Shown: positions 9,132 to 51,907 of the stretch, one piece after another
Numbering within the stretch: the first letter of the stretch is position 1
Layout: each line of letters starts with the position of its first letter
DNA from: Bacteroidales bacterium
GTDB lineage: Bacteria > Planctomycetota > Planctomycetia > Gemmatales > Gemmataceae
NCBI GenBank assembly: GCA_026931725.1
Contig: JAIXLE010000094.1
Coordinates: 1 to 64,000, forward strand
DNA: 64,000 nt
Direction of reading: 5' to 3'
Notes under the pieces: model-generated
Database searches by the model: none
Told to the model about the DNA's origin: nothing
What the model saw: only the letters and a program-made list of their open reading frames with translations
Made by a program: the position numbers and the translations under genes

Positions 9132-10853
9132 ATGGCGATTCAGAAATCCCGCAAAGCCTATGCGAAGAAGTACGGCCCCGTCAAAGGCGACCGGGTTCGA
9201 CTGGCGGACACGGAACTAATTATTGAGATTGAAGAAGATTACGGCGATTACGGTGAAGAATCCATCTTCGGTGGCGGCAAGTCCATCCGGGATGGACAGG
9301 CGCAATGCACCCTCGAAGAGCCACTCAACCCCAAGCATTGTGATCTCGTGATTACCAACGCGATCATCATCGACCACTGGGGGATCGTCAAAGGCGACAT
9401 CGGCATTCGGGAAGGACGCATTATCGCGGTGGGCAAGTCGGGGAACCCGCTGACGCAGTGTGGGATCGACCCGCGACTCGTGATCGGGCCAGCCACGGAA
9501 ATCATTGCCGGGGAAGGCAAGATTGTCACGGCTGGCGGGATTGATTCGCACGTTCACTTCATCTGCCCGCAGCAGATCGACGTGGCTCTGGCCAGCGGCG
9601 TGACCACCCTCATCGGCGGCGGCACCGGGTCGGCGACGGGCACCTGGGCCACCACCTGCACCCCTGGTGCCTGGAACATCATGCGGATGCTCCAGGCGTT
9701 CGAGGGACTCCCCGTCAATGTCGGCATCATGGGAAAAGGGAACAGCGGCCTCGCCAAACCCCTCGTCGACATGGTCGACGCGGGTGCGTGTGCCCTGAAG
9801 TTGCACGAAGACTGGGGAACGACTCTCGCCGCCATTGATACCTGTTTGTCCGTTGCCGATGACTATGACATTCAAGTTGCCATTCACACCGATACGCTCA
9901 ACGAATGTGGCTTCCTAGATGACACCATCGCCGCCATCAAAGGGCGGACCATCCATAGCTTCCACACCGAAGGTGCCGGTGGTGGCCACGCCCCGGACAT
10001 CATGCGGATCGCTGGGCAACCGAACGTGCTGCCCGCCAGTACCAACCCCACCCGCCCGTTCACGGTCAACACGATCGACGAACACCTGGACATGCTGATG
10101 GTTTGCCATCACCTGTCTCGCCACATCCCAGAAGACGTGGCGTTCGCCGAAAGCCGGATTCGTGCCGAGACAATCGGAGCCGAAGATGTCTTTCATGACC
10201 GCGGCATCATTAGCATTATGAGTTCAGACTCCCAGGCGATGGGCCGAATCGGCGAAGTGGTCCTGCGGACCTGGCAAACCGCGCACAAGATGAAAGTGCA
10301 ACTCGGCCACGCGGTCGGGGACAGTGCCCGCAACGACAACGAACGGGTCAAACGGTACATCGCCAAGTACACGATCAACCCGGCCATTGCCCACGGGATC
10401 GCGGATCAGGTCGGCAGTATCGAAGCCGGCAAGCTCGCGGATCTCGTGATCTACGAACCGGCGTTCTTCGGCGTGAAACCGTTCCTGGTTCTCAAGGGGG
10501 GCATGATCGTCAACGCGCAGATGGGCGACCCCAATGCGAGCATCGCCACCCCGCAGCCGGTCCACATGCGTCACCAGTTCGCGGCCTTCGGCCGGGCTTT
10601 GTCGAAGTCCTGCCTGACGTTCGTGTCCCAATCGGCTTTTGATAAAGGCATCGCGGCAAGGTACGGCCTCCAACGGGAAGTCGTCCCCGTGAAGGGCTGC
10701 CGCAAGATTGGCAAAAAGGACATGAAACGGAACGAGGCGACCCCGAAAATCGAGATCGACCCCGAAACCTATCAGGTCAAAGTGGACGGTCAACGGGTCT
10801 ACAGCGAACCGTTGGACAAGCTCCCCATGACCCAACGGTATTTCCTGTTCTGA
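9132..10853 (+). CDS. ureC: Urease alpha (catalytic) subunit
   Basis: This 573-residue UreC is slightly longer than the usual 566-570. All nickel and catalytic residues are present: the HxH pair at about H140/H142, the lysine to be carbamylated in 'ALKLHEDWG' (about K223), H252 in 'IHTDTLNE', H278 in '[15 protein letters not shown]', the mobile-flap '[18 protein letters not shown]' (about residues 325-342), and the nickel-binding Asp in 'SSDSQAMGR' (about D366). The enzyme should therefore be active once nickel is loaded. A strong hairpin lies 48 bases after the stop, before ureF. Confidence 0.98.
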
Positions 10854-43198: not shown

Positions 43199-43630
43199 TT
43201 AGTCGCCCGGAGTGGGGATTTTGCGGTTTTTGCTCATAGTGATGACATTGCCTCTGCCGTGGTATTCCACAGAGGTCATGTAGTTCCGAATGAGAAAAAC
43301 CCCACGGCCACAGGGGCGGTCGATGAATTGCGGGTCCGTGGGGTCCGGGAGTTCTTCCGGGATGAAACCCGGCCCTTCGTCTTCAATCCGCACATGGAAT
43401 TGATCAGGGGAAATCGTGTAGTTAATCGTGACGCGTTTGACTGGGTCAAGCTGGTTTCCATGCTTGATCGCGTTGACTAATGCTTCTTCCAAAGCGAGTC
43501 GGATCGAGAAAATGTCGGATTCCCCGTAGCCGTTGGACTGCAGCGCCTCTTCGATTTCGTCTTGGAGTCGGCGTGCATCGCTTAAATCGCTGAGGATGGA
43601 AACCTCAACTTCCATGTGGCGTTCGTTCAT
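43199..43630 (-). CDS. RsbW/SpoIIAB-like anti-sigma serine kinase
   Basis: This 143-residue GHKL-type ATP-binding protein has an N box 'LALEEALVNAIKHGN', a G1 box 'IEDEGPGFIPEELPDP' and a G2 region 'GRGVFLIRNYMT'. Such kinases bind sigma factors or other partners and phosphorylate STAS antagonists. The gene lies 301 bases from a STAS gene on the same strand, forming a partner-switching pair. The ATG at 43630 is chosen over 43642. No sigma factor gene is adjacent. Confidence 0.9.
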   Translation of the reverse strand: MNERHMEVEVSILSDLSDARRLQDEIEEALQSNGYGESDIFSIRLALEEALVNAIKHGNQLDPVKRVTINYTISPDQFHVRIEDEGPGFIPEELPDPTDPQFIDRPCGRGVFLIRNYMTSVEYHGRGNVITMSKNRKIPTPGD

Positions 43631-43931
43631 GGTGCCCGCCATTCGTAGGGGGTCGGTTCCTGCGCTTCAAAACCCCACCGCGCCTTGGAGAGATTTGAGG
43701 CCATTGGGTGTGGGGAACGGATCGCCTTCACCGGATCCGCATTGCGATTGTCACCAGCGGCAGAACCAGCCCATTCCGTCCGATGGAGCCGTAAGCGATA
43801 CCTGGCTTTCGATAAGAAATCGGTAATCACGAGTTGCGACTCAATCGAAAAAGTCGATTCTGGCAAGGGTTATACTGCGGTTGGCCGTCCCCGTGTACTT
43901 GGTACGGTTCTCCCGCACAACGGTCAATGCC
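43631..43931. other. Gene-free stretch between RsbW-like and STAS genes
   Basis: The 301 bases contain only short overlapping frames with no recognisable protein. No hairpin with a U-tract was seen, so the kinase gene may be read from the STAS promoter or from its own. Confidence 0.5.
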
Positions 43932-44288
43932 TTAGAAGGAATTCAAACCCGTTTGGTCGTCTTTCACGATGGTGAGCATCTTATCGAGCTTGGTGATCGT
44001 GAAGACATCGTAGAGGTCTTTTGAGATTCCGCACAGGACGAGTTTGCCGCTGATGGAGTGCAAACGCTGGTGAAGGCGGATCAACTTCCCCAGCGCGGAC
44101 GAGGAGAGATACTGCACATTGGCGAAGTTCAGCAGGATTTTTCGGCGACCGAGTTCATCCACGAGGCGGAGCAAGTCGTCCCCGATCAATTGGATGTTGG
44201 GTTCGTCGAGAATTTTTTTATCGACGAAGTTCACCACGGTGATATCGCCGATGTCCTCGACCACGAGGCGTTGACGGGGTTGGGTCAT
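43932..44288 (-). CDS. STAS-domain anti-sigma factor antagonist
   Basis: This 118-residue protein has the SpoIIAA/RsbV pattern: 'IGDITVVNFVDKKILDE', 'RKILLNFANVQYLSSSALGKLI' (the phospho-acceptor Ser lies in the SSS run) and 'LCGISKDLYDVFTITKLDKML' (in part). It is expected to bind the RsbW-like kinase encoded next in unphosphorylated form. ATG 44288 is preferred over the 44339 start. It is slightly longer at the C terminus than RsbV. Confidence 0.92.
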   Translation of the reverse strand: MTQPRQRLVVEDIGDITVVNFVDKKILDEPNIQLIGDDLLRLVDELGRRKILLNFANVQYLSSSALGKLIRLHQRLHSISGKLVLCGISKDLYDVFTITKLDKMLTIVKDDQTGLNSF

Positions 44289-44465
44289 GCCAGCACCTTG
44301 GGTAAGCTGCTCATCCTGTCCCGGAGAACCCTCCGACACAAGATGAGCCTAAAGTTTGATTTTCCGCCGTTGACGCAAGCTGTCAAGGATACCCAGACTG
44401 TTTTCCGAACCGGAAGGGCGGCTTGCGGTGGCAAGATCGTTGCGATTCGGGGAAGCCAGTGGGAA

Positions 44466-45023
44466 TTAGTCCTCCGCGGAAGCCGGAATCGGTGAGGAAC
44501 CTTGGTTGCGGTGGGCTTCCTGGTCCGCGATGTACGCTATCTCTGGGGCCAGGGTTTCCACGGCTCGGCACGACGAGGCTTGTGGACTCAGGCAGAACAG
44601 ATCCCAACGCTCGCCCATGTAATCATGCTGGCGAACGTACCAGGTTCCATCACCGTTCGGTTCCAGAGGAAATATAACACATTGATAAGGTTTGTATCGG
44701 GCGAAATCGCCGTGATCGTCGATTCCCAGTTGATGCAGCGTACAACCGGCGTGGAAGAAAACGCACCAGCCGTCGACCACCCGGAGCATGGGTTCGCCGA
44801 GTTTGGTGCGTTGGCTGAGGTAGCCCGCACGCTCGACCAGTTTCCGGGCGGCGGGGCGGAGCCGTTCGAGCAATCGGGGCAGTTGGGCATCAATGACCGT
44901 GCGTTCGGCTGCGGTCAGGCTGGGACGGCCATTTTTGCAGCAGAGGCCATCACATCCCCGGCCATAGGTGCATGCAAAGGTCGCTGTCTCCGCGTTGATG
45001 ATCTCCAGTGTGTGGCGTGGCAT
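44466..45023 (-). CDS. Cysteine-cluster protein (YkgJ/DUF3109-like)
   Basis: This 185-residue protein has an N-terminal metal-binding cluster 'CTYGRGCDGLCCKNG' (four Cys) and further conserved-looking Cys and His in 'GWCVFFHAGCTLHQLG', 'YKPYQCVIFPLEP' and 'DLFCLSPQASSC'. The pattern fits the YkgJ/UPF0153 class of zinc or iron-sulfur binding proteins of unknown reaction. It follows the second ATP-grasp gene by 23 bases, so it is probably in the kamA operon. Start ATG 45023 has AAGGAA 11 bases upstream. Confidence 0.82.
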   Translation of the reverse strand: MPRHTLEIINAETATFACTYGRGCDGLCCKNGRPSLTAAERTVIDAQLPRLLERLRPAARKLVERAGYLSQRTKLGEPMLRVVDGWCVFFHAGCTLHQLGIDDHGDFARYKPYQCVIFPLEPNGDGTWYVRQHDYMGERWDLFCLSPQASSCRAVETLAPEIAYIADQEAHRNQGSSPIPASAED

Positions 45024-45046
45024 GGGTGTGATTTCCTTGGCCCTGG

Positions 45047-46087
45047 TTAGACACCGAAATCGGAGGAATGCGGGGGTGCGCTTCGTCCTCGTCGCGCCGC
45101 ACGGCGTGCGAGGTGCGCGATGAACTGGCCATGTCCCCAGTCGATCGCTTCCAGGCCATAACGCAGCATGATGCTGGTGATCGACGGGTTGGGGTTCGCT
45201 TCGAGCAAATACACTTCCCCATCATCGGCGACGCGGGCATCCACACGGGCACAATCGCGGCAACCCAGCAGGCGGTACATGGTCCGGGCCGCCGAGATGA
45301 CACGGGACGTGAGGTCGTCTTCCAGCTTCACGGGGACATCCACCGGGGTCCGTTCGTACTCCACGCTCGATGTGTCCCATTTCGCGTCGTAGGAGTAGAT
45401 CGGCCAGAGATCCTCTTTCCCGTCTTCAAAGAGGATCTCTGAGAACGGGAGGGCCGTGGGCTCCTGGTTGTCATCCAGTTCGACCAGTGTGGTATGAATT
45501 TCCCGGCCCGCGATGTAGCGTTCGACCAGCACGGGAGCGCCGTAATGCGTGCGGATGTACTCGACCCGGTCCCGGAGGTCGCGGTCGTTCGTCACGACGG
45601 CTCCCTGGTCGATTCCCACGCTCGCATCTTCTCGGCACGGTTTGACGATGACGGGCCAACCCAGCCGGTTCTTGGGGCAGACCTGTTCACCCACGAGGAA
45701 GAAATCGGGTGTATTCAGTCCCGCGCCGACCATCATGAACTTGGTGAGCGGCTTGTTCCGAGCGATCACCAGAGCCTGCGACTGGCAGCCGGTGAACGGG
45801 ATTTCCAGCCATTCCAGTAGGCCAGTCACGGTCGCTTCGGTGTGGCCGCGATCGGCAAACCCTTCAAACAGATTGAAAATGACATCCGGCGGATCGGCTC
45901 GCAAATGGGTGAGGAGGGTACTCGGATCGAGGCCCAGACCAAACTCGGCGGAGGGGATGCCTTCACAGGTCAGAAAATCTCGGACGACCTGGGTACTGTG
46001 CAGGACATCGTGTTCAGAACCCGAATCGGGGTGATCGATCGGCAACGTGGGTTGATTGAAAAGGACGAGGACACGCGGTTGTTGCAT
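45047..46087 (-). CDS. ATP-grasp ligase, D-Ala-D-Ala-ligase-like (second)
   Basis: This 346-residue ATP-grasp enzyme is related to D-alanine-D-alanine ligase. It has an N-terminal 'RVLVLFNQP' strand, 'DVIFNLFEG' (the Ddl 'VFNxxEG' signature), 'LEIPFTGCQS', 'WPVIVKPCREDASVGI' (ATP-binding Lys), 'LVERYIAGREIHTTLVEL' and the metal-binding end 'VYLLEANPNPSI'. Ddl uses a similar scaffold to ligate an amino acid to another amine. Divergence in the substrate region and the presence of a partner make a cell-wall role unlikely. ATG 46087 has GGAG 8 bases upstream. Confidence 0.87.
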   Translation of the reverse strand: MQQPRVLVLFNQPTLPIDHPDSGSEHDVLHSTQVVRDFLTCEGIPSAEFGLGLDPSTLLTHLRADPPDVIFNLFEGFADRGHTEATVTGLLEWLEIPFTGCQSQALVIARNKPLTKFMMVGAGLNTPDFFLVGEQVCPKNRLGWPVIVKPCREDASVGIDQGAVVTNDRDLRDRVEYIRTHYGAPVLVERYIAGREIHTTLVELDDNQEPTALPFSEILFEDGKEDLWPIYSYDAKWDTSSVEYERTPVDVPVKLEDDLTSRVISAARTMYRLLGCRDCARVDARVADDGEVYLLEANPNPSITSIMLRYGLEAIDWGHGQFIAHLARRAARRGRSAPPHSSDFGV

Positions 46088-46297
46088 CTGATCACACTCC
46101 GACACAAACCAGAGCGGCTCGGTTGCCGGGGCCGAGCCGAGCGCTGACGGCATTCATGGACATGAGGTCATGAATCGTATTCCGAGAGAACTCATTATCT
46201 TTCTGACATTGCTATGCGAGAACTCCAACCAACACAACCGAACTTCCTGAACTCGCAGGAATCCGCGGTGGCATCGTGCGGATTGTGCCGTTCGTCC

Positions 46298-47326
46298 TCA
46301 CATTCGGCTTTCCGCTGCTTGCACGATGGTTTGTATCAGATCGTGATAACGCATCCCCATGGCGCGGGCGATGAGAACCAGATCGCTTGAGACAGGGTTC
46401 AACCCTGGCAGCGGGTTGACTTCCAAAAAGTAGGGGACACCGTCTCGAATGCGGTAATCGAACCGTGCCACATCTCGGCAATCGAGGGCATCCCAGACCG
46501 CGAACGCGGAGGCTTCGAGTTCCCGCATCACCGCTGGGGGTAACTGAGCCGGACATTCATAATCCACCAGAGCCGCGTAGTTCCGTTTGACTTCCAGGCT
46601 GTACACGAACGGCCGAGACGTGTCCCGCGGGATGATCCGCATCGCCCCGAGTACCTGGGGGGGATCGTTCCCCACGATGCCGAGGGTGACTTCCTCACCG
46701 GCAATGAATTCTTCCAGCAGAATCGGTTGACGATAGCCGGTTCCCAGTTCCTGGACGATGGCCCCGAGGTCGTCCGGTCGTTCGATCAGACAACGATGGC
46801 AGATCCCCTTGGAGGAACCTTCCCAGGCGGGTTTGGCGATCACGGGATAACGCAGGCCCGCTTCGGCGATCAGTGGGCCGAACTCCGCGAAGTCGCCATC
46901 GTAATCCGGGGGCAGCGGCGGCAGGACGCAACCGGCTGGCAGAGTGACCCCCGCCGCCGCGGCGAGGGTGCGGGCTTTGGTCTTATCGAGTGCGACCGCC
47001 AATGTCAGCGGATCGGAGCCGGTGTACGGGATGCCGAGCATCTCACAAACGGCGGGAACGCGCGCTTCTCGGTTGCGGCTGTGGCCGTGACCTTCCGCAA
47101 TGTTGAACACGAGGTCGGGCGGGTCCGCCAGCAGGGCCGTCAAGAGCGTTGGTCCATTGTGCAGTTCGACGACGGAATGCCCCATCGTCCGTAGTGCCTC
47201 CGCCAGGGCCGCGATGGTGGCTGGGGAGTCGAATTCTTCGGCCCAGTCGTCCGCGTTGGCCGTGAGTGAAGTTGTGGGGGGAAATGGGGTGTCCGGCTTG
47301 AGGTCGAACGCGATGCCGATCTTCAT
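46298..47326 (-). CDS. ATP-grasp ligase, D-Ala-D-Ala-ligase-like (first)
   Basis: This 342-residue paralogue of the next gene has 'KIGIAFDLK' at the start, 'LVFNIAEGHGHSRNREARVP', 'LGIPYTGSDPLTLAVALDK', 'YPVIAKPAWEGSSKGI', 'LLEEFIAGEEVTLGIVG' and the metal-binding 'PYFLEVNPLPGL' (some shown in part). The 'EGSSKGI' loop is closer to true Ddl than that of the second ligase. It starts 83 bases after kamA ends. The amino-acid substrate cannot be read from sequence; beta-lysine from KamA is a candidate. Confidence 0.87.
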   Translation of the reverse strand: MKIGIAFDLKPDTPFPPTTSLTANADDWAEEFDSPATIAALAEALRTMGHSVVELHNGPTLLTALLADPPDLVFNIAEGHGHSRNREARVPAVCEMLGIPYTGSDPLTLAVALDKTKARTLAAAAGVTLPAGCVLPPLPPDYDGDFAEFGPLIAEAGLRYPVIAKPAWEGSSKGICHRCLIERPDDLGAIVQELGTGYRQPILLEEFIAGEEVTLGIVGNDPPQVLGAMRIIPRDTSRPFVYSLEVKRNYAALVDYECPAQLPPAVMRELEASAFAVWDALDCRDVARFDYRIRDGVPYFLEVNPLPGLNPVSSDLVLIARAMGMRYHDLIQTIVQAAESRM

Positions 47327-47409
47327 TCCGAGTCCCCGTATTTCCTACCGTTCCAACAAAACACTCACTCGCCCCCTTGGCCAGCGAGTCCGAATCGCCA
47401 TTGGGCTCA

Positions 47410-48870
47410 TTATCGAGTCGCGGACTCGTTATGGTACGCTGTGTCCGGGAGTGACGGCAGAACGGTCAAAGACAGTTTGAGGGTGTCCGCCGGTTCTGCG
47501 GAGGTCGGCTCTCCTGCCCCGGCGCAGGGGGCATCTTCTGGGGGCGGGACGCAGGGTTCCGCGTTGCGACGGCGTCGGGCGAGGCGTTCGAGTCCTTCGG
47601 GAATCAACGCGGAGCGGCTGCCCTGGAGCAGGCTACTCACGCCACGGGTCATCGTCGGTTCCGTCGTGGCGGGTTTGTCCTCGGCTTGATAGCGAATCAG
47701 CAACCCTTCGTAGTTCCGCAACACGACGGAATCGTTACTCATCGACACCAGATAGTTCGGCATCAGCGGGATTTTTCCACCGCCATGCGGGCTATCGACG
47801 ACATATGTGGGAATGCCGATACCGGACATGTGCCCACGAAGCCCTTCCATGATTTCCAATCCCGTCCAGACGGACGTGCGGAAGTGTCCCGCGCCGATGA
47901 CCGGGTCACAGTGGAAGAGGTAATACGGTCGGACCTTGATTCGCAGCAACCCGCGCAGCAGGTTCCGCATCGTTTCGAGGTTATCGTTGACCCCTTTGAG
48001 CAGCACGGAATGATTGTTAATCATCATGCCGTTGCGTAAGAGGGTCCGACAGACGCGAGCGGATTCCGGGGTGATCTCACGCGGATGGTTGAAGTGCGTC
48101 TGAATGTAGACTTTTTCGGCCGAGGCCAGCAGATCGACGAGTTCGTTATCGTAGAGTCGCTGCGGCAGCGTCACCGGGACACGCGTGCCGACACGGATGA
48201 CATCGACATGGTCGATCGCTTTGAGCTGATCCAGGTAGAATCGGAGCTTGCCCAGCGGGAGCGTGAGCGGGTCGCCGCCGGAGATCACGACATCCCGAAT
48301 CGCCTCTGTGCGGCGGATATAGTCGATCATCCGTTCATCATCGCCGCTGCTGCCTTCCCAGCCGCCGCGGGTCAATGTTGCCCGTTTGCGGGTGCAATAG
48401 CGGCAGTACATCGAACAGTTCGGCGTGGTAATCATCAGCACCCGATCCGGGTAGCGATGGGTCAGGCCGGGGACTGGGGAATCTTTATCTTCTTCGAGTG
48501 GGTCTTCCAGTTCGTAACCGGACGGGTTCTCCCCTTCTTGGGGTGACGGCACCGATTGGAGTCGGATCGGATCGGCGGGATTATGGGGGTCAATGAGTGA
48601 GAAGTAGTAGGGCGGAATGGCGACTTTGTAGTCGCGTTCCAGTTGACCGATGGCTTCCAGTTCCTCCGGGCGGAAACTGAGAAGATGGCGTAATTGACGG
48701 ACAGATCGAATGGCATTCTGGGTCTGCCAACGCCAATCATCCCATTGTTCCTGGGGGACGGCCTGCCAGATGGGATGGCGTCGGCTGATGCTTGGCGGCT
48801 CGTCATCCTCATAGCCGCTGCCAAGCATCGCCGAGGCGGGGAGCGAGCGGGGCTCGTCAGGCTCGAACAT
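47410..48870 (-). CDS. kamA: L-lysine 2,3-aminomutase (radical SAM)
   Basis: This 486-residue enzyme turns L-lysine into L-beta-lysine using S-adenosylmethionine, a 4Fe-4S cluster and pyridoxal phosphate. The cluster motif is 'CSMYCRYC' (C152, C156, C159). Also present are 'VVISGGDPLTL', 'QTHFNHPREIT', 'LLKGVNDN', 'PYYLFHCDPVIGAGHFRT' and 'GGGKIPLMPNY' with the PLP lysine. It exceeds the clostridial enzyme (416 residues), with about 50 extra residues at the N terminus and a Pro/Arg/Glu-rich tail of about 80. Start ATG 48870 is chosen; 48948 is possible. It heads a run with two ATP-grasp genes. Confidence 0.94.
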   Translation of the reverse strand: MFEPDEPRSLPASAMLGSGYEDDEPPSISRRHPIWQAVPQEQWDDWRWQTQNAIRSVRQLRHLLSFRPEELEAIGQLERDYKVAIPPYYFSLIDPHNPADPIRLQSVPSPQEGENPSGYELEDPLEEDKDSPVPGLTHRYPDRVLMITTPNCSMYCRYCTRKRATLTRGGWEGSSGDDERMIDYIRRTEAIRDVVISGGDPLTLPLGKLRFYLDQLKAIDHVDVIRVGTRVPVTLPQRLYDNELVDLLASAEKVYIQTHFNHPREITPESARVCRTLLRNGMMINNHSVLLKGVNDNLETMRNLLRGLLRIKVRPYYLFHCDPVIGAGHFRTSVWTGLEIMEGLRGHMSGIGIPTYVVDSPHGGGKIPLMPNYLVSMSNDSVVLRNYEGLLIRYQAEDKPATTEPTMTRGVSSLLQGSRSALIPEGLERLARRRRNAEPCVPPPEDAPCAGAGEPTSAEPADTLKLSLTVLPSLPDTAYHNESATR

Positions 48871-49125
48871 ACAGGAGGCAACCTCCCATTGCCGGATACC
48901 CGGTGGTTGGCAGACGCTGCCGACCGCAGGCCGGGAGAACGCATCCATCCGTGGGGATGGGTGTTGTTTTGCGCTCGTTTAGAAGGAATCCTAACGCCGG
49001 GTTTTTGAAATACAAGTTGATGCGGAAGCGGGATGCATTTCCCAGGGCAATCTCAACGGAATTGTAGCGCAACTCGTTCAACTGACCCGTAGACCTGGAC
49101 CGGCACCGGGGCGAGTGTCCTACGG

Positions 49126-49166: not shown

Positions 49167-50486
49167 TTAGGGGAACAATCCCCGCTTTTGCTTCTCGATG
49201 GCGACCTTGTAAATCCCCAAGCTCAACGCCGCGATCCGGTTGGGGACATTTTTGGCGCGAGCCACTGCCCGCACCCGCTGATACGCGCCCAGCATCAATT
49301 CTTTCAGTTTCGCGTTGACCTGTTGTTCACTCCACATGAGTTGCGAAAGATCCTGGACCCACTCGAAGTACGACACCGTCACCCCGCCCGCGTTGCACAG
49401 CACATCCGGGATCACATGGATACCGGCCGCGTCGATGATGGTATCGGCTTCCGGTGTCGTCGGGCCGTTCGCGCCTTCGGCCAGGATGCGACAACGGAGT
49501 TTCCCGGCATTTTCCGCCGTGATGACCCGTTCCATCGCCGCCGGGACCAGCACCGTACATGGGATCGCAAACAACTCATCTGCCGCAATCGGCTCCGCAT
49601 CCGGGAAGCCCACAACGGAACGCTGCGGATGCTGTGCGGCATACCGTAATAGTGCCGGAATATCCAGACCATTACGATTGTGAATCGCTCCGTAGCGATC
49701 GCCGATCGCCAGAACCTTCACGCCGATCGCGGCCAGTTCCTCCGCCGTCACGGAACCGACGTTCCCGAACCCTTGGATCACCGCGGTCGCCGACTCTGGG
49801 GCGATGTCCAGTTCCTTCAAGGATTCGAGAATGCAATAGACGGCCCCACGTCCGGTGGCTTGCCTGCGACCGATACAGCCGCCGAGTTCCACGGGCTTCC
49901 CGGTCACGATCTCCGGGCAGGCGTAACCGATCTTCATGGAATACGTGTCATAAACCCAGGCCATCGACTGTTCATCGGTTCCCATGTCGGGGGCCATGAC
50001 ATCCGTGCGGGGGCCGATGATGGCAAGAACTTCTTCGGTGAAGCGGCGTGTCAGTTTTTCGCGTTCTCCCATGCTTAGGGCTGTGGGATCACAGGCGACC
50101 CCGCCTTTCGCGCCAGAAAAGGGCAGGTTCATAATGCCGCATTTCCAACTCATCCACATGGAGAGCGCCGCCACTTCGCCCAAATCGACATTGGGGGCGA
50201 ATCGCAGGCCGCCTTTGCTGGCGCCACTGGTGAGGGAGTGTTGCACACGATAGCCGAGAAAGGTTTGCAGGCGGCCATCATCCATGCGAATCGGAACGGC
50301 CACAACCAAAGAGCGTTTGGGAATGGTCAGGCGATTGATGATGTCGGGGTCGATCTCCGGGAGTAATTGGGCCGCTTTATAGAGTTGCTCCACCGCCATG
50401 CGGTAGGTGGGGCTGCTTTCCAACAGGGTCGGGGGCGGAGCGTGATAGACGTTCGCGTCCGGCTGAACAATGACGGGAGAGGCCAT
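49167..50486 (-). CDS. gdhA: Glutamate dehydrogenase
   Basis: This 439-residue Glu/Leu/Phe/Val dehydrogenase is of the NAD-linked hexameric type. Substrate lysines lie in 'TSGASKGGLRF' (K91) and 'WMSWKCGIMNLPFSGAKGGV' (K115 and catalytic K127). The Rossmann motif is 'IQGFGNVGSVTAEEL'. 'LVPAAMERVITAENA', 'ILAEGANGPTTPEA' and 'VIPDVLCNAGGVTVSYFEW' are also conserved. It links 2-oxoglutarate and ammonia to glutamate. ATG 50486 is the natural start. A REP-like palindrome follows the gene. Confidence 0.96.
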   Translation of the reverse strand: MASPVIVQPDANVYHAPPPTLLESSPTYRMAVEQLYKAAQLLPEIDPDIINRLTIPKRSLVVAVPIRMDDGRLQTFLGYRVQHSLTSGASKGGLRFAPNVDLGEVAALSMWMSWKCGIMNLPFSGAKGGVACDPTALSMGEREKLTRRFTEEVLAIIGPRTDVMAPDMGTDEQSMAWVYDTYSMKIGYACPEIVTGKPVELGGCIGRRQATGRGAVYCILESLKELDIAPESATAVIQGFGNVGSVTAEELAAIGVKVLAIGDRYGAIHNRNGLDIPALLRYAAQHPQRSVVGFPDAEPIAADELFAIPCTVLVPAAMERVITAENAGKLRCRILAEGANGPTTPEADTIIDAAGIHVIPDVLCNAGGVTVSYFEWVQDLSQLMWSEQQVNAKLKELMLGAYQRVRAVARAKNVPNRIAALSLGIYKVAIEKQKRGLFP

Positions 50487-50700: not shown

Positions 50701-51537
50701 TCAGCCATCCAGCACACGGGCGCTGCGGTCCTGGGTATCTTCCAACCAGGCGACCTCTCCCGAGTCCGCGAATCGGCGCACACCCACCGACCGCACCGCC
50801 TCATCGGGCAGGACATCCAGGCGAGTGTAACGGGGATGATGACTGTCTTTGTACGGATCGTTCCGAGCCGCGTTGTAGCAACAAATCATGGACCAACGGG
50901 GGTTTTCAGACTTGTTCTGATCAGAACGATGGAGCAAATTACAATGGAAAAATAAGGCATCGCCGGGGGCCATCTCCACATAGACGAGTTCGAGCCGCTT
51001 CAACAATTCGTCGACACGTTCCCGATCCGCTCCGGCTTGATCGCCGGTCAGAACATGTGTGATCCGCCCGGCATGGTGCGACCCGCGAATCACTTGTAGG
51101 CAGCCGTTTTCCCGCCGACTCGGATCCACGGCGATGAAAACACTGGTGAGAAGCGGAAACAGAACGCCATTCTGATACCAGTACCCATAATCCTGATGCC
51201 ACGCCCACGCCCCGCCAACTTTGGGGTCTTTGAGGATCATTTTGGAGTGGTAGTGGTAGACTTCGCCACCCAGTAGCTTTTCGCAACTCCGCACCACCCG
51301 TTCCGAACGCGCGAACGCCCCATAAATCCCGTTGCCCGGATGGTTCCACAGCGAGAGCCGAACAACCCCGCCTTCTCCATCCGCGCGACCAAACGCCCGC
51401 CGATCCAGTTCCGCGTCTTCTTTAGCAGAACGTGCCAGCAAGGCGATTTCCTCCGCATCGAACAGCCCTCTGGCGAGGGTAAACCCCTGTTCCTGGTACT
51501 CATCCACTTGGGTATCGGAGAGAACACGACTGGTCAT
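50701..51537 (-). CDS. Phytanoyl-CoA dioxygenase (PhyH) family protein
   Basis: This 278-residue Fe(II)/2-oxoglutarate oxygenase has the metal triad visible as H114 and D116 in 'WAWHQDYGYW' and H203 in 'NLLHRSDQN'. 'ENGCLQVIRGSHHAGRI' and the 2-oxoglutarate Arg region 'ENPRWSMICCYNA' complete the fold. The family hydroxylates small molecules such as lipids, ectoine or amino acids. Start ATG 51537 has GGGAG 8 bases upstream. It lies upstream of gdh, with 214 bases between them. A role in modifying a lysine-derived product is only a guess. Confidence 0.88.
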   Translation of the reverse strand: MTSRVLSDTQVDEYQEQGFTLARGLFDAEEIALLARSAKEDAELDRRAFGRADGEGGVVRLSLWNHPGNGIYGAFARSERVVRSCEKLLGGEVYHYHSKMILKDPKVGGAWAWHQDYGYWYQNGVLFPLLTSVFIAVDPSRRENGCLQVIRGSHHAGRITHVLTGDQAGADRERVDELLKRLELVYVEMAPGDALFFHCNLLHRSDQNKSENPRWSMICCYNAARNDPYKDSHHPRYTRLDVLPDEAVRSVGVRRFADSGEVAWLEDTQDRSARVLDG

Positions 51538-51907
51538 GATGCACTCCCGCAATGAAGGCAGCGAAAGCCGGCACCACTACTCTATCACAGGGGGAAGCGG
51601 GGCATCAGCGTGCGGCGTGTTTCGAGAACGATTCCGGCTAGCGCGGGGGACTTCTCCCACGCGGTCACATCGGTCAAGTGCGCCATCCCGTTCCCGGATG
51701 CAGCCAGGTATCATCAATTCCAAACGAATTGGCGATTGTATACCCTGGAATTGATGAAAAGACGATTCGCGGAGAACCTGGCCGAGTTTCTCCCCAAATC
51801 TTTCGGCGGTCAAAGCGAATTCTTACACGTTCCCGATTGCCGATGGCGGTGCGCCCGGTCACAATGACCGCGGCATTTTTCGGGCATTTTCTGGAGAGGG
51901 ACACACT
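51538..51907. other. Divergent promoter region of PhyH and SPFH genes
   Basis: No gene is seen in these 370 bases. A 12-bp perfect inverted repeat, TCATCAATTCCA (51711-51722) against 51746-51757, is present. From 51816 to the SPFH start the sequence is duplicated at 22223-22315, which marks it as a discrete leader/promoter module. Confidence 0.65.

Follow-up and report, generated by a model that had tools for sequence, protein, structure and literature searches.

What is a lysine 2,3-aminomutase gene doing beside two genes that resemble D-Ala-D-Ala ligases (Ddl) in a planctomycete? The question is raised by a locus in the Bacteroidales bacterium assembly GCA_026931725.1 (GTDB: Gemmataceae), contig JAIXLE010000094.1, of which positions 1 to 64,000 were analysed; this whole stretch of 64,000 nucleotides is called the window below. 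On its minus strand, four genes follow one another in the transcription order KamA, Lig1, Lig2, DUF3109 protein:

47410..48870, minus strand: KamA, lysine 2,3-aminomutase, a radical S-adenosylmethionine (radical-SAM), pyridoxal phosphate (PLP)-dependent enzyme (TIGR00238, 316.6 bits, cut-off 199.2)
46298..47326, minus strand: Lig1, Ddl-fold ATP-grasp ligase and marker gene of the module (PF07478, 106 bits)
45047..46087, minus strand: Lig2, second Ddl-fold ATP-grasp ligase (PF07478, 97 bits)
44466..45023, minus strand: DUF3109 protein with a cysteine cluster (PF11307, 38.6 bits, cut-off 33.5)

The start of KamA was taken at the ATG at 48870, which is preceded by GGGAGG, while the longest open reading frame (ORF) begins at 48948. 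Lig2 was started at 46087, where its orthologues start and where an ATG with an upstream GGAG is found; the longest ORF begins at 46153, and its extra 22 residues are disordered in the structure model. With these starts, the gaps between the four genes are exactly 83, 210, and 23 bases, and re-reading thus reproduces the arrangement given in a first-pass annotation of the same DNA.

Our answer is that KamA, Lig1, and Lig2, together with an acetyltransferase of the GNAT family encoded elsewhere in the genome, form one functional set, a membership that is well supported by the genomic observations below. That the four constitute one pathway making an acetylated β-lysine peptide appears to us fairly probable.

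Gene order and genome co-occurrence

A scan of named genomes with a Lig1 alignment yielded at least 576 relatives, from which the best 80 loci were kept. In 55 of these 80, the gene immediately upstream of Lig1 is KamA, and in 38 of the 55 Lig2 follows next. The other best loci comprise 14 Lig1 pairs of the myxobacterial type without adjacent KamA, five that are cut by contig ends, and six without KamA. Twelve genomes were reached via loci lacking an adjacent KamA; 11 of them carry a KamA-family gene elsewhere, ten at more than 240 bits; the family member of G109 is more distant. Where KamA is located elsewhere in myxobacteria, it is mostly a tandem pair. Going by record titles, many of which denote metagenome bins whose single taxon assignments may be wrong, KamA–Lig1 neighbours occur in Planctomycetota, Chloroflexota (Dehalococcoidia, SAR202), Acidobacteriota, Omnitrophota, Margulisiibacteriota, Lindowbacteria, Deltaproteobacteria/Thermodesulfobacteriota, Hydrothermus, and Ozemobacter. 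The survey of gene order that the first-pass annotation had suggested thus places the ATP-grasp genes near kamA in relatives.

Co-occurrence across genomes is equally tight. With thresholds of E ≤ 1e-50 for a strong Lig1 and E ≤ 1e-60 for a strong KamA, both are present in the identical 31 of 99 genomes of the class, with no discordant case (nominal Fisher p of 2e-26, inflated by the relatedness of the genomes). Both genes are found even where they are unlinked, as in G018 and G021, two of many f4 genomes, and they also co-occur in a scattered case, G064, one of many f3 genomes. At the level of the phylum (199 genomes), KamA is present in 31 of the 34 genomes with Lig1, and the module was detected in all 25 sampled Gemmatales genomes. 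Because gene order is conserved and the genes co-occur across genomes, the clustering of KamA with the ligases is not due to chance and lies far above chance expectation. The proposal of the first-pass annotation that KamA and the ATP-grasp enzymes act together on β-lysine gains from this conservation, which extends beyond planctomycetes. Further, pairwise distances of Lig1, Lig2, KamA, and GNAT across shared loci correlate with r values of 0.73–0.85 (no control gene for comparison), which may lend weak support to the linkage.

The fourth member is a GNAT of 158 residues, encoded directly after Lig2 in Dehalococcoidia, an Acidobacterium, and others, with a gap of about 10 bases in most Dehalococcoidia. 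GNAT adjoins Lig2 in 31 of the 80 best loci; fusions of the two are encoded in L081 (L067/L081), L113, and L127 as well as in L037, a planctomycete of another family; in Myxococcus and Corallococcus, Lig2 and GNAT form an unlinked pair. The genome under study holds a single, unlinked match (G000:C59:9625-10086, E 1.6e-40 in a profile search) and the window holds none. The first-pass statement that an acetyltransferase is absent is therefore accurate for the window but not for the genome. A clear GNAT match is present in all 19 Lig1-bearing genomes tested (15 planctomycetes, this one included, and four others), while five genomes lacking Lig1 gave no match in three cases, a weak one in one, and a moderate one in one. 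Conserved neighbours of GNAT, looked for across Gemmatales as a clue to function, were not found.

Predicted enzymes and proposed pathway

The best solved relative of KamA is 2A5H, with 405 residues aligned (E 3e-124). In all 82 KamA proteins encoded beside Lig1, the cluster cysteines C178, C182, and C185 and the PLP lysine K392 are invariant, as are D348 and D385. The latter align to Asp293 and Asp330 of 2A5H, which we take to be the pair binding the ε-amine of lysine; E. coli EpmB keeps only the first aspartate in the same alignment. Against the AblA equivalog model TIGR03820, KamA scores 450.4 bits and thus stays under the cut-off of 525.4. Judged from these features it is a lysine-type aminomutase, placed outside curated AblA because of the sub-cut-off score.

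Lig1 and Lig2 share 32% identity, and both belong to PF07478. Their AlphaFold models have predicted local distance difference test (pLDDT) values of 88–89 (Lig1 88) and find DdlA and DdlB as closest structures (E 1e-25 and 1e-24); the closest solved sequences and folds are those of Ddl and VanA-type ligases. Two Ddl models score Lig1 at 152.7 and 120.8 bits and Lig2 at 136.4 and 117.9 bits, against cut-offs of 243 and 245.65, the second being that of TIGR01205. With E. coli DdlB as alignment reference and numbering, the catalytic residues K97, K144, K215, R255, D257, E270, and N272 are kept in both ligases. The substrate positions are replaced throughout the families: in Lig1, Y216 by R (96 of 116 proteins), V152 by K (106 of 116), and L282 by D (116 of 116); in Lig2, Y216 by W and S150 by A or G, each in 70 of the 70 proteins with data. 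On the donor side, E31 and D33 are invariant in the ligase alignment, and DdlB E15 aligns to a glutamate in most Lig1. By alignment, both ligases thus retain the catalytic residues of Ddl and not its substrate residues, and we reject an assignment of either one as an ordinary Ddl, in line with the divergence from Ddl noted in the first-pass annotation. The invariant aspartate of the acceptor pocket together with E31/D33 would suit a substrate with an extra positive charge, such as β-lysine.

In the pathway we propose, KamA would convert L-lysine to β-lysine in the first step. Lig1 and Lig2 would activate a carboxylate as acyl phosphate by ATP/Mg2+ chemistry and link free amino acids into a β-lysine-containing dipeptide and then a tripeptide, coupling β-lysine to one or two others. 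GNAT would acetylate an amine of the substrate or product of Lig2, a placement suggested by the GNAT–Lig2 fusions. The product would be a small, soluble, cytosolic, N-acetylated β-lysine peptide, which may act as a compatible solute or as a stress metabolite. We favour a soluble product that stays inside the cell because the module has no conserved companion gene for transport or the envelope; at the loci examined, a conserved regulator or resistance gene was not seen beside it either. We infer which amino acids are joined, the order of the bonds, the acetylated group, and the role of the product, for which an osmolyte or stress function is guessed by analogy with acetyl-β-lysine.

Several points weigh against this pathway. 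KamA serves other pathways too: It is present without Lig1 in 13 of the 199 genomes of the phylum, which is to be expected if KamA has further uses. Conversely, three Lig1 genomes (G114, G118, and G159; completeness 91, 83, and 84%) are without strong KamA. GNAT is unlinked in most Gemmatales, and a moderate GNAT match (7.6e-31) comes from G008, which is without Lig1. Moreover, Omnitrophota and Margulisbacteria have a RimK/LysX-like ATP-grasp protein in place of Lig2 and show no GNAT nearby, and the product may therefore vary among lineages. Finally, the action of the ligases and GNAT on β-lysine is deduced from genes, and Ddl-family ligases can switch substrate with few residues, so their substrates are unreadable from sequence.

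The lineage variants themselves take several forms. In L112, L130, L132, and L138 (Omnitrophota and Margulisbacteria), KamA and Lig1 are followed by the RimK/LysX-like protein, and a gene for an S66 LD-carboxypeptidase lies close behind in L112 and L130. A tandem Lig1'–Lig1 pair without KamA is found in the myxobacterial loci L133, L135, L136, L139–L145, L147, L148, and L150, in several of which an S58 (DmpA/BapA-family) peptidase is encoded beside the pair; the S58 family includes β-aminopeptidases. KamA is located elsewhere in these genomes, and so is Lig2–GNAT in the two genomes checked. As a separate observation, L040:8986-10929 encodes a 648-residue fusion of a methyltransferase domain and a Ddl-like ligase in G093, a genome without strong KamA.

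Each of the enzyme families has been described before; what appears to be new is the module and the fact that it is conserved. In those parts of the open-licence literature that the search covered, we found no description of a module of KamA and Ddl-like ATP-grasp ligases. We see an even chance that it represents an undescribed pathway that spans phyla and supplies Gemmatales, Dehalococcoidia, Myxococcota, and others with a general intracellular metabolite, with Ddl-fold ligases recruited to β-amino acids. The combination is found repeatedly in environmental bacteria of many phyla, most of whose small metabolites are uncharted. If the reading is correct, it would add a further use of β-lysine beside the acetyl-β-lysine osmolyte, EF-P modification, and antibiotics made by non-ribosomal peptide synthetases (NRPS), and it would establish Ddl-fold ligases that act on β-amino acids.

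Alternative products, cell wall, and EF-P

The alternative that survives best, although we regard it as unlikely, is that KamA and the acetyltransferase follow the logic of AblA/AblB. The pairing of an aminomutase with an acetyltransferase matches that system, GNAT is a constant partner, and other bacteria as well as archaea show a link between salt stress and the formation of β-lysine (PMC9337991). AblA and AblB need no ligases, yet no gene accompanies this KamA more constantly than Lig1, and the module occurs in every one of the sampled Gemmatales genomes. Against the AblB model (TIGR03827, cut-off 205.1 bits), one of three GNAT relatives scores 16.6 bits and two give no match; by this comparison the GNAT of the module is not AblB. 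A Na+ riboswitch controls some other KamA genes. Near KamA in the window and at four related loci, neither this riboswitch nor another Rfam motif reaches the gathering score.

Slightly less probable still is that KamA uses glutamate, arginine, or ornithine and that a different β-amino-acid peptide is made. The sub-cut-off AblA score would allow this, and the glutamate and arginine aminomutase models match KamA as well, with 412 and 360 bits. On the other side, the AblA model is the best-scoring of the family, and the aspartate pair assigned to the ε-amine is invariant in all 82 proteins.

A secreted antibiotic or signal of the streptothricin type, in which ATP-grasp ligases replace NRPS, seems improbable. 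β-Lysine is best known from antibiotics, where it is linked by NRPS adenylation domains (PMC8359417), and the peptidase neighbours of some phyla, S58 at the Lig1 pair of myxobacteria and S66 in Omnitrophota, could fit such a product. This explanation has to be set against a module that is present in every sampled Gemmatales genome and across many phyla and that lacks a conserved adjoining transporter, regulator, or resistance gene at the loci examined.

We give very little credence to the view that both ATP-grasp enzymes serve the cell wall as ordinary or Van-type D-Ala-D-X ligases and adjoin KamA without a functional tie. In its favour are the fold relationship described above and the peptidoglycan reported in Gemmata obscuriglobus (PMC5147048). 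Against it stand scores of 118–153 bits versus cut-offs of 243 and more, and the family-wide replacement of Y216 and L282. In addition, none of canonical Ddl, MurF, and MraY reaches its cut-off in the tested Gemmatales, complete genomes included. All three are above cut-off in G002, G008, and G043, and G043 carries Lig1 and Lig2 besides its Ddl. An ordinary Ddl identity is rejected on the scores, the replaced substrate residues, and the sub-cut-off Ddl, MurF, and MraY of the tested Gemmatales taken together. Dehalococcoidia, too, frequently carry the module, and many members of this group are considered to lack peptidoglycan. In the genome under study, no other Ddl-like proteins were found besides remote matches, which, from their size, are presumably enzymes such as carbamoyl-phosphate synthase and biotin carboxylase.

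A role in peptidoglycan or the cell envelope, one of the options raised in the first-pass annotation, is thus unlikely, because the module is found in Gemmatales without recognisable MraY, MurF, and Ddl. Since Lig1 and Lig2 are the sole such enzymes in the tested genomes and canonical MurF and MraY were undetected there, it would be a mistake to read Ddl-like genes in Gemmatales as a sign of a peptidoglycan pathway. As a side observation, Lig1 and Lig2 may have been counted as Ddl in this order, for which peptidoglycan has been reported in G. obscuriglobus. Two frames of the genome (G000:C22:8476-10149 and G000:C3:3742-4602; 865 and 837 residues) match a Mur-ligase model weakly; the former also matches an ATP-grasp model, and both look like cyanophycin synthetases.

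Equally hard to credit is that the ligases take the place of EpmA and attach β-lysine to a protein, elongation factor P (EF-P): A KamA-family enzyme, EpmB, supplies the β-lysine of EF-P and some ATP-grasp enzymes modify proteins, but the EF-P of this genome (L153, G000:C176:6321-6869) carries the tip PGNW, with Asn where E. coli has Lys34, no EpmA exceeds the cut-off in the genome (the sole strong match is a 498-residue lysyl-tRNA synthetase), as the first-pass annotation had found for its own stretch, and the Ddl-fold ligases characterised so far act, to our knowledge, on free amino acids. The Asn tip and the lack of EpmA rule out EF-P modification.

Neighbouring genes and known systems

Two genes upstream of KamA and the DUF3109 gene had been considered in the first-pass annotation as further contributors:

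49167..50486, minus strand: glutamate dehydrogenase (GDH), by family match; a loose neighbour
50701..51552, minus strand: PhyH-family 2-oxoglutarate/Fe(II) (2OG-Fe(II)) oxygenase, by family match; link to the module not conserved

DUF3109 adjoins Lig2 in some Gemmatales loci (L042, L045, L049, L052, L062, L064, and L067), even where Lig2 stands apart from KamA, and was not found near the loci of Chloroflexota, Omnitrophota, or Myxococcota. It is often encoded near Lig2, though only in Gemmatales, and is probably not a core member, contrary to its earlier inclusion in the candidate pathway. Both upstream genes are real. GDH precedes KamA at a distance of no more than a few kb in several Gemmatales loci (L053, L057, L058, L060, L061, L063, and L067) and was not found beside KamA in other phyla, and PhyH had no match near KamA in the locus of any relative. 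DUF3109, GDH, and PhyH were consequently rejected as pathway members, the first two being unconserved outside Gemmatales and PhyH being conserved nowhere. Extra genes between KamA and Lig1 or between Lig1 and Lig2 in Gemmata, namely a small ORF resembling a membrane protein, a ParE-like ORF, and a 237-residue protein of no Pfam family, were set aside as well, as they occur in few loci only.

Downstream of DUF3109, STAS and HATPase genes are encoded at 43199-44339 (minus strand) of the window, and the order Lig2–(DUF3109)–STAS–HATPase is repeated in L042, L045, L048, and L062. A scan of the locus for promoters and terminators returned promoter-like sites no more often than expected by chance. 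Elsewhere in the window, at 9296-9583 (minus strand), a match to the Rfam family 5_ureB_sRNA (76 bits) is probably due to the urease gene there and not to a real small RNA.

Among known systems, AblA/AblB, which makes the osmolyte N-ε-acetyl-β-lysine, resembles the module in combining a KamA-family aminomutase with a GNAT-fold acetyltransferase. The module differs by a KamA below the AblA cut-off, a GNAT that is not AblB, and two constant ATP-grasp ligases. EpmB/EpmA likewise couples β-lysine synthesis by a KamA-family enzyme to amide linkage, whereas the genome under study has neither EpmA nor a lysine at the EF-P tip, and the module uses ligases of the Ddl instead of the lysyl-tRNA synthetase fold. 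With Ddl and VanA-type enzymes, the ligases share the fold, the PF07478 domain, and the catalytic residues for ATP/Mg2+ chemistry; they differ at Y216 and L282 (and S150 in Lig2), occur without recognisable MurF and MraY, and are linked to KamA and GNAT. Clusters for N-acetylglutaminylglutamine amide (NAGGN) combine an acetyltransferase with an ATP-grasp ligase to make an acetylated dipeptide solute. In the module, no asparagine-synthetase-like protein was seen, and the KamA step is new. In streptothricin-type assembly, too, β-lysine is activated and amide-linked; there, NRPS adenylation domains are used (PMC8359417), whereas the module would employ ATP-grasp ligases that form acyl phosphates.

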